Shown here in pieces: positions 19,544 to 22,962 of a stretch of DNA of 42,783 nucleotides. Position 1 is the first letter of the stretch; each line of letters opens with the position of its first letter. The DNA is from Spongiactinospora gelatinilytica (GTDB taxonomy: Bacteria; Actinomycetota; Actinomycetes; Streptosporangiales; Streptosporangiaceae). Below the pieces are notes generated by a model. That model did no database searches, had not been told where the DNA came from, and saw only the letters and a list, made by a program, of their open reading frames with translations. Position numbers and translations under genes: made by a program. Where the stretch lies: positions 1 through 42,783 of the forward strand of contig NZ_POUA01000017.1 of NCBI RefSeq assembly GCF_003236385.1, written 5' to 3'.

Positions 19544-20380
19544 GCACTTCGCGCCCTCGACTTCGCCGTCCATGTGCGGCACGGCCCTGAGGTGCTGGCA
19601 GGCGCCGACACGGTGATCATCCCGCCGTTCGCGATCTCGGGACCGGCCACGCCGGTCACGCCGGACGGCCGGCTCGTCCCCGCGACGACGCAGGCGCTCG
19701 CACGGATCACCCCGGGGACCCGCATCGTGTCGATCTGCACCGGCGCCTTCGTCCTCGCCGCCGCCGGATGGCTGGACGGGCGGCCGGTGACCACGCACTG
19801 GCGTCAGACCGATCGGCTGCGGCGGCTCTTCCCCCGGGTCAAGGTCGATCCGGACGTGCTCTTCTTGGACGACGGCGACATCCTGACCTCGGCGGGGGCC
19901 GCGTCCGGGGTCGACCTGTGCCTGCACCTGGTGCGGAAGGGCCACGGCAGTGAGGTCGCCAACCAGGTGGCCCGCAAGTGCGTGGTCCCGCCGTGGCGCG
20001 ACGGCGGCCAGGCCCAGTACATCGACCGGCCGGTCCCGGCCCCTTCCTCCGGCGGCCCGGCCAGGGCCCGCGAATGGGCGCTCGCGCGACTGCACCTCCC
20101 CGTCACGCTCGCCGAACTCGCGGCGGAGGCGCGGATGAGCGGCCGTACCTTCGCCCGCCGCTTCCGCGCCGAAACCGGGCTGAGCCCGGGGCGGTGGCTC
20201 ATCCAGCAGCGGGTCGAACGCGCCCGGCGGCTGCTCGAATCCACCGACCTGCCGGTGGACCGGATCGCGTCCGAGGTGGGATTCGGGACCGCCGCCTCGC
20301 TGCGGCAGCACTTGAACGCGGCGATCGGCGTCTCGCCCGCGACCTACCGCCGCACCTTCCGGCCGCCCCTGGCGGGCTGA
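19544..20380 (+). pseudogene. GlxA-type regulator (DJ-1/PfpI plus AraC), 5' truncated
   Basis: A protein of the GlxA subfamily: residues of a DJ-1/PfpI domain (VLAGADTVIIPPF, then SICTGAFVLAAAGWLDGRPVTTHW with the nucleophile-elbow Cys, and ILTSAGAASGVDLCLHLV), followed by an AraC DNA-binding domain (LAELAAEARMSGRTFARRFR, VDRIASEVGFG). Normal members have about 310-330 residues; here the first 60 or so are missing and the frame is joined directly to the end of the LysR remnant near 19544. A GTG at 19574 could still start a 268-residue product, so the DNA-binding domain might be made. Its end overlaps the exporter gene on the other strand by 37 bases. Confidence 0.7.
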
Positions 20381-21648
20381 CCGTCACGGCGGTGGCCTGC
20401 GCGCAGTACGAGGATCTCGGCGGCGAGCGCGCCGAGCAGCGCGATCGACGCGCAGGCGACCCCGGGGAGCCGGGTCAGCGGCAGGAGCAGGCCGAGAGCC
20501 AGCATCCCGCCCACGTGCGCGACCGCCGCGCGGAGCAGCACCGAGGTACGGTCGGCGGCGATGATCAAGGCGCGGGCCTGTCCGCGTACCGCCCACAGGG
20601 CCGGGACCGCCACGAGGACCGCCACCCATGACTCCCCCAGGTACGCGGGACCGGGGGGCACGTTGCTGAAGCCGGTGAGGTACAGGTGCGCCAGCGGCGT
20701 GCAGGCGACCAGCAGACCGGCCGCGAGCAGTGTCCCGGCCAGCAGGACGGTGAAGCGGCGCAGCACGGCGACGTCACCGGTGCGCCGCAGCAGGGCCGCG
20801 CCGACCGTCTCGAAATCCGACAGCGGGATCGTGCCCAGGGACAGCAGCCCGTAGAGGGCCGGCCACACGATCAGGGAGGCTTCGGCCGCGCCGGATCGGG
20901 CGAGCACCACCGTCGTGATCAGAGCGGGGCTCATGTTGAGCAGGATGTTGGAGGTCAGCCGCGCGTGCTGGGCCAGCAGCCGCCCTGCGCCCTTCTGGAC
21001 GTCCTCGGTGACCGCCAGGCGCCGGACGGCGGTGCTCAGGTACGCCGCCTCCGCCCACGCGCCCGCCGACAACGCGACTCCGCCGACCGCCGCCGTGGTG
21101 AGCCCGGCCCGCCACAGTCCCAGGGCGGCGGCGATCGTCACGGCGATGCGCACCCCGGTGGCGACCGCGATCGGCTGGGTGCGGTCCCGCTCGATCAGGC
21201 GTCCGTGCAGGTAGCGGCGGAGCGCCACGGCCGGCGGCGCCGTGGCGAAGGACAGCAGGCACACCTGGAACATGCCGTGCAGCCCCGCCGGGAGGCCGAT
21301 CAACGCGGGAACGGCCGGCAGCGCCGCCAGCCCCAGCATCACCGCGCTGCCCGCGACCCCGGTCACCAGCGCGTGCCGCAGCAGCGCGGACGAACCGTGC
21401 ACGGCCCGGGCGACGACGACCAGTGGGGCCAAGGCCAGCGCCGGGGAGTTGACGACGAACAGCACCGACAACCCGGCCCCCAGGGCGGCCAGCGCGGAAG
21501 GCCCCTGCGGCATTCTCGTCACGACCGCCGCGACCACCGGGATCTCCCACGCCAGCAGCGAGGAGCCGAAGGCGGTCGGCACCCAGGAGCGGGCGAGGGC
21601 CCAGACTCGCGCTCCCCCGCTCAGATCGTCTGCTCGCGTCGCGCTCAC
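20344..21648 (-). CDS. MATE/MOP-type exporter, ANKH-like, of the RiPP locus
   Basis: A 434-residue integral membrane protein with about twelve hydrophobic segments. The N-terminal block WEIPVVAAVVTRMPQGPSAL near residues 34-53 and the following NSPALALAPLVVVARA resemble the ANKH-like branch of the MOP (MATE/flippase) superfamily, where a Glu and an Arg sit in the same places. This is a comparison from memory, not a search. Its GTG start at 21648 overlaps the stop of the ThiF-like gene by 4 bases (GTGA), so the two are translationally coupled. The natural role is export of the modified peptide or self-protection. A substrate other than the peptide, such as a lipid or small anion, cannot be excluded. 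Confidence 0.75.
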   Translation of the reverse strand: MSATRADDLSGGARVWALARSWVPTAFGSSLLAWEIPVVAAVVTRMPQGPSALAALGAGLSVLFVVNSPALALAPLVVVARAVHGSSALLRHALVTGVAGSAVMLGLAALPAVPALIGLPAGLHGMFQVCLLSFATAPPAVALRRYLHGRLIERDRTQPIAVATGVRIAVTIAAALGLWRAGLTTAAVGGVALSAGAWAEAAYLSTAVRRLAVTEDVQKGAGRLLAQHARLTSNILLNMSPALITTVVLARSGAAEASLIVWPALYGLLSLGTIPLSDFETVGAALLRRTGDVAVLRRFTVLLAGTLLAAGLLVACTPLAHLYLTGFSNVPPGPAYLGESWVAVLVAVPALWAVRGQARALIIAADRTSVLLRAAVAHVGGMLALGLLLPLTRLPGVACASIALLGALAAEILVLRAGHRRDGQPARGGRKVRR

Positions 21649-22667
21649 GTCCGGCAGGGGCAGTCCTTCCGGAATTCAGAGGGGGTGAATTCGAAGGTGA
21701 GGGTGTCGGCATTGACATAAAGGCTCTGCCCGGCCGTGCGAGATGTCTCTTTTGCACCGGAAACCAGGCCGATGACCTCGTTCACGGCGATTCCCGCGAC
21801 CATCGCGACCAAGGTCCCGGTGAGACTGCCGGACTTCTCCGGCCGTAACACGTCCAAGTCGCGAATTCCCACGCATTCCATGCATGGAGTCCGGCCGGGA
21901 ATCATCGTCGGCCCGACCCTGGCCCCTTTGTTGGTGATGCCGATCTGCCCGAACGGCACGCCCGTGCGCAGGCTCGCCTCGTTCGACCAGCGGATCGCGT
22001 GGTTGCGCGGCCGGTCATAGGCGTTGAAGAAGAAGTCGGCGCCCTGCACGAGTTCGACGATATCGTCGGCGGACTCGATCCGGGTGTGGTGGGCGATGAA
22101 CCGCGACCGCGAATTCTGTAGCTCCAGATGCCGTTTCAGCGCGTCCAGCTTCGGCATCCCGATGTCCTGCTCGTCGAAGGTCGGGTGGGTCGGCAGATTC
22201 TCCTCGGCGAAGGTGTCGAAGTCCACCGCCTCCAGCGTGCCGATCCCCGCCGCGTTCAGCAGCCGCAGCAGCGTGGTGCCGCCCGCTCCCGTCCCGATGA
22301 TCACGATCCGGGCGTCACGCAGGCGTTTCATGCCCTCGTAGCCGTCCCAGCCGTCGCGGTCGTACAGCCGCAGGTGGTTGATCTGCCGGCTCCACCGCCG
22401 CAGATCTTCGGCATCCAGCGGGGGGACGTCGGCGGCGTCGTCCAGGACACCCTGCGATGCGAGGACCTCCAGCCAGGAATCCGTCTCGGGGAACCGCTCG
22501 CGCAACTCCGGTAGGGTGGCCGACCCGTCCAGGGCCATCACGAAGGACACCATTTCCTTGGTGGGATTCATGATCCTGAACTTTTCCGGACCGATCCCGA
22601 TATAGAGATGCGGCTCGCCCGCAATATGGTAGATCCGGAGAAATTCCTTGACTCTGGGTCGCTGCAC
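21645..22667 (-). CDS. ThiF/E1-like adenylating enzyme with N-terminal peptide-recognition-like domain
   Basis: A 340-residue enzyme of the MccB/PaaA kind. Residues 1-85 resemble a PqqD-like RiPP recognition element (LYIGIGPEKFRIMNP at 21-35, ALDGSATLPELRERFP at 45-60). WSRQINHL at 92-99 matches the YSRNFLHY element of MccB. The ATP-binding E1 core has IVIIGTGAGG at 121-130 and the acidic VDFDTFAEENL at 148-158. Two Cys pairs, CMEC (262-265) and CPC (336-338), probably bind zinc. The Arg-Gln normally found after the NL in E1 enzymes is replaced by Pro-Thr-His. The enzyme would adenylate the C-terminus or side chains of a short peptide. GTG 22667 has ggagg 5 bases upstream. A peptide gene lies 114 bases upstream and the exporter is coupled downstream. 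Confidence 0.88.
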   Translation of the reverse strand: MQRPRVKEFLRIYHIAGEPHLYIGIGPEKFRIMNPTKEMVSFVMALDGSATLPELRERFPETDSWLEVLASQGVLDDAADVPPLDAEDLRRWSRQINHLRLYDRDGWDGYEGMKRLRDARIVIIGTGAGGTTLLRLLNAAGIGTLEAVDFDTFAEENLPTHPTFDEQDIGMPKLDALKRHLELQNSRSRFIAHHTRIESADDIVELVQGADFFFNAYDRPRNHAIRWSNEASLRTGVPFGQIGITNKGARVGPTMIPGRTPCMECVGIRDLDVLRPEKSGSLTGTLVAMVAGIAVNEVIGLVSGAKETSRTAGQSLYVNADTLTFEFTPSEFRKDCPCRT

Positions 22668-22712
22668 TTATTCCTCCTTCCGTGACGCCCGTATCACCCC
22701 TATAGCGCCCAT
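22668..22712 (-). CDS. Possible 14-codon leader ORF before the ThiF gene
   Basis: ATG GGC GCT ATA through GAG GAA TAA encodes MGAIGVIRASRKEE. Its stop is immediately followed by the GTG start of the ThiF-like gene and its last codons lie on that gene's ribosome site. No good ribosome site precedes the ATG. It could be a coupling leader or chance. Confidence 0.25.
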   Translation of the reverse strand: MGAIGVIRASRKEE

Positions 22713-22724
22713 AGCACGTTTCGC

Positions 22725-22760
22725 TCCGTGGCGGGAGGACGCACTTCCTCCCGCCACGGA
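22725..22760 (-). terminator. Perfect 15-bp hairpin between peptide gene and ThiF gene
   Basis: TCCGTGGCGGGAGGA at 22725-22739, a six-base loop and TCCTCCCGCCACGGA at 22746-22760 pair without a mismatch. There is no T-run, as is common in high-GC bacteria. It follows the peptide stop by 20 bases and precedes the ThiF start by 57, so it would act as a partial terminator or 3' stabiliser that gives a short, abundant peptide message. Confidence 0.75.
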
Positions 22761-22780
22761 CCAAACGCTTGGCCAAACCA

Positions 22781-22843
22781 TCAGATGACGTTACCGTGCC
22801 ACTCCTGAACGAGGCCCTCCTCGTGCACACACTCCATGGTCAT
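22781..22843 (-). CDS. Candidate RiPP precursor peptide, 20 residues
   Basis: ATG ACC ATG GAG TGT at 22843 to TGA at 22781 encodes MTMECVHEEGLVQEWHGNVI. A very strong ribosome site (ggggggagg) lies 8 bases before the ATG, the best in this part of the window; an in-frame GTG nine bases upstream is badly spaced. It is followed by a 15-bp hairpin and then by a MccB/PaaA-like ThiF gene on the same strand. The layout is that of microcin C (peptide gene, stem-loop, adenylating enzyme, exporter) and of pantocin A, whose precursor is modified at a Glu-Glu-Asn. This peptide has Glu-Glu-Gly at 8-10 and Gly-Asn near the end, but does not end in Asn. It is too short for homology to settle it; the ribosome site and position carry the call. 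Confidence 0.6.
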   Translation of the reverse strand: MTMECVHEEGLVQEWHGNVI

Positions 22844-22962
22844 TTCGGTCACCTCCCCCCTGACTACTTACTTAAGAGGGGAACACCGCGACCATCACCC
22901 CGTCAAGGCACGCTGAATTCGGGCGAACACCCATGCCCTTTTCCTGCGCCGCCCGGCACCGC

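Follow-up and report, generated by a model that had tools for sequence, protein, structure and literature searches.

A predicted RiPP cassette of a 20-residue peptide, an RRE-ThiF enzyme and a MATE-fold exporter in actinomycetes

What product is made by a locus in which a 20-codon open reading frame (ORF) stands beside a ThiF-type adenylating enzyme and an exporter? This question is raised by the window, the whole stretch of 42,783 nucleotides analysed here (contig NZ_POUA01000017.1 of Spongiactinospora gelatinilytica, assembly GCF_003236385.1). A peptide ORF, an RNA hairpin, the gene of an RRE-ThiF enzyme and an exporter gene follow one another in this order on its minus strand, where RRE denotes the recognition element of ribosomally synthesised and post-translationally modified peptides (RiPPs). 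An earlier inspection of the letters (the "sequence-only reading") had placed these three genes at the same positions and in a single direction, and the overlap between the exporter start and the end of the ThiF gene amounts to 4 bases (GTGA). The three genes very probably form a self-contained RRE-ThiF RiPP cassette, the product of which is most likely a small modified, probably cyclic, peptide. In the reading favoured here, held with some confidence, the carboxyl of Ile20 is adenylated and a nucleophile of the core, most likely Trp15, closes a ring.

Six distinct members of the cassette are counted, all with the same order of peptide, hairpin, ThiF and exporter. They span Streptosporangiaceae, Streptomycetaceae and Pseudonocardiaceae as well as locus L068, hence at least three actinomycete families. 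Besides the window, a scan of a collection of 84,980 species, using exact 8-residue patterns as query, yielded loci L004 to L007 in Spongiactinospora rosea (95% identity), Streptomyces sp. HNM0574 (85%), Streptantibioticus ferralitis (82%) and Pseudonocardia sp. ICBG1293 (78%). A fifth locus of that scan, L008, was dropped as a weak 30% match. The sixth member (L047/L068, 62%) belongs to the order of the Pseudonocardia strain and was found in whole-genome searches of sampled sets. Since the exact patterns overlooked it, the count of six is a lower bound. G292/L009 and G698/L016 apparently duplicate the genome of L004, and all three enter the count as one member. The gene order, which the sequence-only reading had proposed to look for in other actinomycetes, is thus recovered in five relatives, and the 20-codon ORF, whose absence there would have spoken against the proposal, is kept upstream of the ThiF gene in all five.

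The six 20-codon peptides, MTMECVHEEGLVQEWHGNVI (window), MTIERVYEEGLVQEWHGNVI, MKIERIHEEGLVKEWHANVI, MKVTRVYEEGLVKEWHGNVI, VTIEQIKDDGLVQEWHGNVI (GTG start) and MLIERVYEEGLVKEWHGNQI, align without gaps. Past the start residue, G10, L11, V12, E14, W15, H16, N18 and I20 are invariant, and the C-terminus reads W-H-(G/A)-N-(V/Q)-I throughout. Every peptide therefore holds a Trp in its core and ends in Ile, and none (0/6) ends in Asn, as had been noticed for the window peptide in comparison with microcin precursors. A ribosome-binding site of the GGAGG or AGGAGG type lies shortly before the start codon in all six loci. The peptide has no match in Pfam or NCBIfam. Two pairs of residues had been put forward as candidate sites of modification, and both lose weight: Glu8-Glu9 is Asp-Asp in Pseudonocardia (L007), and the Gly of Gly-Asn, Gly17, is Ala in Streptomyces sp. 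HNM0574 (L005).

This resemblance is not that of chance ORFs. When the window peptide is aligned without gaps (BLOSUM62) to the 600 bases that precede the ThiF gene in each of the five other members, it scores 76-92, while the best of 500 shuffled peptides reaches 27-34 and the observed score is attained by 0/500 at each of the five loci, which rules out a chance ORF. At the DNA level, ORF similarity is 0.70-0.95, against 0.47-0.74 for the 100 bases upstream and 0.35-0.65 for the stretch between ORF and ThiF gene, the ORF being the higher in 15/15 pairs. Moreover, the nonsynonymous rate (dN) is below the synonymous rate (dS) in 13 of the 15 pairs of loci; the exceptions are window/L004, with three changed codons and no synonymous one, and L068/L005 (dN 0.218, dS 0.130). 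With so few changes to count, more weight is given to the flank comparison. Judged from these comparisons, the peptide is under selection at the protein level.

The enzyme possesses a clear ThiF domain (Pfam E 2.7e-34, above the gathering score), and NCBIfam returns 25 weak matches, none of which reaches its curated cut-off. The nearest sequences in the PDB are MccB (1.8e-20), PaaA (9.7e-12) and MoeB (7.1e-10). The AlphaFold model (pLDDT 91.4, from a 42-row alignment) superimposes on MccB (6om4) with a Z of 32.4 and a root-mean-square deviation of 2.7 over 325 residues, at 19% identity in the structural alignment, and on PaaA with a Z of 29.9 over 310 residues. MoeB (Z 30.4) and ThiF (Z 30.2) tie with PaaA, yet through the adenylation domain only: their alignments start at model residue 82-84, those of MccB and PaaA at residues 2 and 7. 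The N-terminal ~80 residues are therefore taken as a peptide-binding RRE, which in the predicted fold is fused N-terminally to the ThiF domain. Sequence and predicted fold thus both support the MccB/PaaA-like enzyme with RRE-like N-terminal domain recognised earlier.

The ATP site is largely that of the family. Glycines 125, 127 and 130, D149, D151, N157, K173 and D218 are kept in 6/6 members, and so are R91 and two Cys pairs (four Cys). The NLxRQ motif, found as NLTRQ in MccB, is replaced by NLPTH in the window enzyme; Thr and the His that follows it are present in all six members, which extends to the family the lack of Arg-Gln first seen in the window. For comparison, 52 loci of wider relatives were fetched, from which 13 with an ORF length outside 340-420 and three near-copies were omitted. 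The remaining 36 all carry Arg at the first place, and at the second Gln (34/36) or Ser (2/36). In a tree of 47 proteins, five of them from plasmids, the six members sit together on a single branch (2.52 changes per column, support 100/100); long branches occur among the plasmid rows, and only the grouping of the six members is relied upon.

Published mutants give a meaning to these positions; statements on published systems are taken, here and below, from parts of PMC6495379, PMC12150305 and PMC12250964. In PaaA, K187A abolished conversion and R174A cut activity sharply, and Arg167, Lys180 and Asp225 of EnfB are given as ATP- or Mg-binding (PMC12250964). In IndF, K179A nearly abolished activity and Q167A had a minor effect (PMC12150305). 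According to these papers, the Asp is needed by EnfB and the Lys by IndF and PaaA (PMC12250964, PMC12150305). Motif and spacing suggest that K173 and D218 correspond to these Lys and Asp residues. By arithmetic on the published numbering, R174 of PaaA and R167 of EnfB, 13 residues before the Lys, would stand at the position of Thr160, and Q167 of IndF, 12 residues before it, at that of His161. In a thioesterase cited in PMC12150305, a His is thought to activate an indole; His161 might, speculatively and by analogy, likewise activate the indole of the substrate.

The exporter has no Pfam or NCBIfam match at E up to 1. Its AlphaFold model (pLDDT 85.8) has as best Foldseek match the MATE structure 6fhz (E 1.4e-7; VIA Z 32.3 over 407 residues). 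The titles of 49 of the 50 matches listed name MATE, the MOP superfamily, MurJ or WzxE; the other is titled only "protein A". The predicted fold is thus that of a MATE protein of the MOP superfamily, in line with the earlier view of a MATE-like rather than MFS exporter. The identity to the structural matches is 10-14%, at which the cargo cannot be read from the structure. The gene is kept in 6/6 members, the five others being 41-92% identical to that of the window.

A stem-loop lies between the peptide and ThiF genes in all six members. Its folding z is -6.1 in the window, -4.5 in L004, -3.4 in L005, -2.7 in L006, -3.5 in L007 and -1.9 in L068, with 0, 0, 1, 2, 1 and 9 of 200 shuffles, respectively, folding at least as well. 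The window hairpin lacks a U run. By analogy, it is perhaps a partial terminator or an mRNA-stabilising element: at the equivalent place in the mcc operon of E. coli, between peptide and enzyme genes, stands a terminator hairpin, and ribosome binding to mccA induces termination, upon which the peptide mRNA accumulates (PMC6495379).

These elements may be assembled into the following scheme. The 20-residue precursor would be translated in excess, the hairpin past its gene letting less transcript reach the enzyme gene, by analogy with microcin C. Its leader, approximately residues 2-12, would bind to the RRE. The ThiF-like enzyme, which presumably forms a dimer as MccB does, would spend ATP on adenylating Ile20 at its C-terminal carboxyl. 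A nucleophile in the core E-W-H-(G/A)-N-(V/Q)-I would then attack the adenylate, with loss of AMP and a net loss of water. The likeliest one would be the indole nitrogen of the invariant Trp15, giving a W-H-G-N-V-I ring; His16, Asn18 or, as with EnfB, a backbone amide may serve instead. The product would exit via the MATE-fold exporter, and the leader may be trimmed by a peptidase encoded elsewhere. The scheme leans on published ThiF-like enzymes, which adenylate a carboxyl that a nucleophile then attacks (PMC12150305). EnfB acts on the C-terminus WWIVI and IndF on NWYFI (PMC12250964, PMC12150305), and IndF joins N1 of Trp to the carbonyl of the C-terminal Ile, as shown there by NMR (PMC12150305). 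Activation of Ile20 and ring formation are favoured because the substrates of EnfB and IndF end in Ile with a Trp nearby, and because W15 and I20 are invariant here. Activation of the C-terminal carboxyl is accordingly rated as fairly probable, and the choice of Trp15 as nucleophile is tentative.

Several points weigh against this account. The ATP-binding Arg of PaaA (R174) and EnfB (R167) is missing, which makes adenylation itself uncertain. Conservation does not pick out the Trp-Ile pair, since E14, H16 and N18 are equally invariant. The Trp stands five residues before the Ile, and the proposed ring has six residues instead of the four in IndA (IndF being compared by its published description). 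No peptidase gene is found in the cassette, a difference from IndA/IndF. Finally, the hairpin of L068 is weak, as nine shuffles fold at least as well. The absence of Arg from all six members would also fit a catalytically dead ThiF protein whose sole role is to dock the peptide, the reaction being left to another enzyme encoded elsewhere, as ThiF-like proteins beside YcaO enzymes act solely as docking domains (PMC12150305). The other compared ATP-site residues are nevertheless kept in 6/6 members, and no other gene is common to more than two of the six loci, which leaves this explanation improbable. Closer to the favoured account, C-terminal activation could be followed by attack not by Trp15 but by a backbone amide, or by an outside amine or thiol with an amide, thioester or thioacid as product. 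EnfB indeed makes a backbone imide or, with amines, a C-terminal amide (PMC12250964), and the present evidence does not tell the nucleophiles apart. The invariant W15, H16 and N18 suggest, on the other hand, that core side chains matter, although they could serve binding alone, a role said to be filled in part by Trp17 and Trp18 of EnfA (PMC12250964). Such a reaction is somewhat unlikely, while it is the most credible of the alternatives.

Other chemistries would place the modification elsewhere. As PaaA, the other RRE-bearing structural match after MccB (Z 29.9), modifies neighbouring Glu residues within its peptide (PMC12250964), a pantocin-like enzyme might activate the side-chain carboxyl of the invariant Glu14, or of Glu8-Glu9, and form an internal ring, the later residues being a follower. 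Pantocin chemistry at Glu8-Glu9 is unlikely because of the Asp-Asp of Pseudonocardia; none of the six peptides holds an EEN core, the EE pair being followed by Gly and replaced by DD in one member. MccB also surpasses PaaA in both sequence and fold match, and the follower of PaaP tolerates single mutations (PMC12250964), whereas the C-terminal residues of the cassette peptide are nearly fixed. Taken together, these points make a pantocin-like route unlikely. MccB being the best match in sequence and fold, and the mcc operon starting with peptide, hairpin and ThiF-like enzyme (PMC6495379), the cassette could instead place a nucleotide on the C-terminus or on the invariant Asn18 and export this Trojan-horse adenylate as such. 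The modified Asn of microcin C is C-terminal, however, and with none of the members ending in Asn, such an adenylate is unlikely; no resistance or nucleotide-tailoring gene is common to more than two members either, and only a slim chance is given to this alternative. A short ORF and a hairpin ahead of the first enzyme gene are also the layout of an amino-acid attenuator. The ORF might then be a regulatory leader of the ThiF operon and the hairpin a regulated terminator, with no substrate role for the peptide. The layout fits, but Trp is encoded only once and no amino acid forms a run, the peptide is conserved as far as its C-terminal NxI, and the fold of the enzyme is that of RRE-bearing enzymes that modify peptides. 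An attenuator is the least probable of all these explanations, and a very improbable one.

The features of the window on which this argument is built are collected in Table 1.

Table 1. Elements of the cassette in the window, with the basis of each assignment.
Feature	Position	Strand	Basis
Shine-Dalgarno GGAGGT of the peptide ORF	22851..22856	-	Sequence read; 7 bases to ATG
Precursor peptide ORF, MTMECVHEEGLVQEWHGNVI, 20 aa, ATG to TGA	22781..22843	-	Gap-free conservation in 6/6 members
Hairpin, 15-bp stem and 6-base loop	22725..22760	-	Folding z -6.1 over an 81-base stretch
RRE-ThiF (MccB-like) adenylating enzyme, 340 aa	21645..22667	-	Pfam ThiF, PDB sequence matches, AlphaFold model
RRE-like N-terminal domain of the enzyme, ~residues 1-83	22419..22667	-	Predicted strands and three helices; fold alignment
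Thr160-His161 codons replacing Arg-Gln of NLxRQ	22185..22190	-	Alignment; T 6/6, H 6/6
Predicted MATE-fold exporter (MOP superfamily), 434 aa, GTG start	20344..21648	-	AlphaFold model, Foldseek, VIA; kept 6/6

The cassette family is rare. In the sampled sets, which overlap and whose counts include the centre genome, true members number 2/345, 1/394, 2/394, 2/397, 1/200, 1/62 and 1/81 genomes. Set against the genomes matching at threshold, these are 2/3 (set of 345), 1/3 and 2/36 (394 each), 2/21 (397) and 1/1 (200, 62 and 81), the remaining matching genomes carrying wider relatives. In the two genus sets (1/62, 1/81), the centre genome alone has the cassette. The source genome of the window holds one copy, its two further matches being distant (31% and 33%). 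None of the six pattern matches in viral contigs was confirmed as a relative, and a tblastn search of plasmids gave 61 records, all below 60% identity, the best among the 20 of 61 listed being 30%.

When flanks of 4.6-8.6 kb were compared by BLASTP (E up to 1e-5), each ORF-encoded gene beyond the cassette was common to two members at most, and these flanks have no receptor, immunity or peptidase gene common to members. A larger conserved gene cluster was rejected, flank sharing being pairwise at most. The window and S. rosea have many neighbours in common, as expected within one genus. Two genes, differently placed, are common to L005 and L006, one for a LeuA-like protein (64% over 90 residues) and one for an AsnC-type regulator (41%); a BTAD-type regulator (32%) is common to L006 and L068. 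L006 and L007 have a single weak match in common (31% over 112 residues), and the remaining pairs of loci no flank gene. This pairwise sharing is taken as coincidence or relatedness. Neighbours present at one locus each include, by Pfam, an aconitase C domain, EamA, MFS, aldehyde dehydrogenase, PhyH, aminotransferase and Asn synthase. The window also has, convergent with the cassette, an AraC-type regulator with a DJ-1/PfpI domain (19574..20380), which recurs in S. rosea alone among the five other loci. Upstream of the L068 cassette and on the same strand (L068:11987-18563) lie Asn synthase, a probable adenylation-domain protein and an alpha/beta hydrolase-like protein, the last two called by eye only; this region is perhaps a separate biosynthetic cluster. 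Patchy occurrence and changing neighbours suggest horizontal transfer, by which the cassette has probably spread among actinomycetes.

How does the cassette compare with known systems? In the papers drawn on here, few ThiF-like enzymes are tied to peptide products, namely MccB and its Bacillus analogue, PaaA, GrcB, EnfB and IndF (PMC12250964, PMC12150305). The cassette resembles microcin C of E. coli in its order of short peptide gene, hairpin and RRE-ThiF gene (PMC6495379), and MccB is its top PDB match. It differs by a precursor of 20 residues ending in N(V/Q)I, instead of 7 ending in Asn, by NLPTH in place of NLTRQ and by the MATE-fold exporter. With IndA/IndF of Streptococcus pneumoniae, the source of a Trp-Ile indolylamide, it has in common the RRE-ThiF enzyme, a minimal cluster and a Trp near the C-terminal Ile, as in NWYFI (PMC12150305). 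Enterofaecin of Enterococcus faecalis shares a Trp-containing core, an RRE-ThiF enzyme and C-terminal carboxyl activation, EnfA having 21 residues and ending in WWIVI. Compared by its description, EnfB retains Arg167, the EnfA leader has a (V/I)RKA motif, and four transporter proteins belong to the cluster (PMC12250964); the product structure is called not yet settled (PMC12150305). PaaA of pantocin A is likewise an RRE-ThiF enzyme acting on a peptide, but it works on an internal Glu16-Glu17-Asn18 followed by a follower, and it keeps Arg174 (PMC12250964).

Wider actinomycete ThiF proteins mostly align over part of the N-terminal domain as well, and many have a short upstream ORF, but they are 22-30% identical to the window enzyme and none of the upstream ORFs listed for them resembles the cassette peptide. 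Some read (V/I)RKLE(K/R)(I/L)ETT... or IRRLEKIETT, a few of them ending in PGCRND(V/L)CG, and look like precursors of other ThiF RiPPs (L012, L051-L055, L057, L058, L060, L063, L065 and L067). Others recur as (T/I)RK.S.A...EG (L019, L049, L050), as MIKKSTKRYS(S/G)AA..KG (L021-L024, L026) and as MKIRK(V/L).. (L020, L037, L070), the latter in two genomes of the Streptomycetaceae set and on one Sporosarcina plasmid. On a Streptomyces hirsutus plasmid (L073:1152-5762), the deposited annotation gives in a row a HEXXH putative peptide-modification protein, ThiF, an MFS protein and a TldD-related peptidase, probably another RiPP type.

The suggestion of a product of a new kind stands in part. ThiF-like enzymes acting on peptides with a Trp near a C-terminal Ile have been published from streptococci and enterococci (PMC12150305, PMC12250964), and in this respect it falls; the parts of these papers drawn on describe no actinomycete system, and in this respect it holds. 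The main text of PMC12250964 has no occurrence of actinomyc, actinobacteri, Streptomyces or indol. Among the titles and abstract openings listed from the open-access literature, no description of the cassette was found, nor any paper related to the core EWHGN. The cassette may have been seen, unnamed, among the further network clusters of the IndF authors (supplementary figure of PMC12150305). It is best regarded as a variant within the known ThiF-like RiPP class.

A bolder version of the favoured account would have the Thr-His ThiF protein activate Ile20 and form the W-H-G-N-V-I ring through the Trp indole or a bond unseen in ThiF RiPPs, with His161 helping deprotonation and export by the MATE-fold protein, the product being a shared signal or fixed-function metabolite, horizontally spread. 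As a whole, this is rather unlikely. How a ThiF-like enzyme functions once the conserved Arg is lost is a question of its own. The cassette needs a single 20-residue peptide and a single 340-residue enzyme, which puts its reaction within reach of a test on synthetic peptide and purified protein. In at least three actinomycete families the core is nearly fixed, which speaks for a single conserved product with one job rather than for a diversifying toxin; this product could be a signal, a ligand of a metal or small molecule, or a fixed antibiotic.

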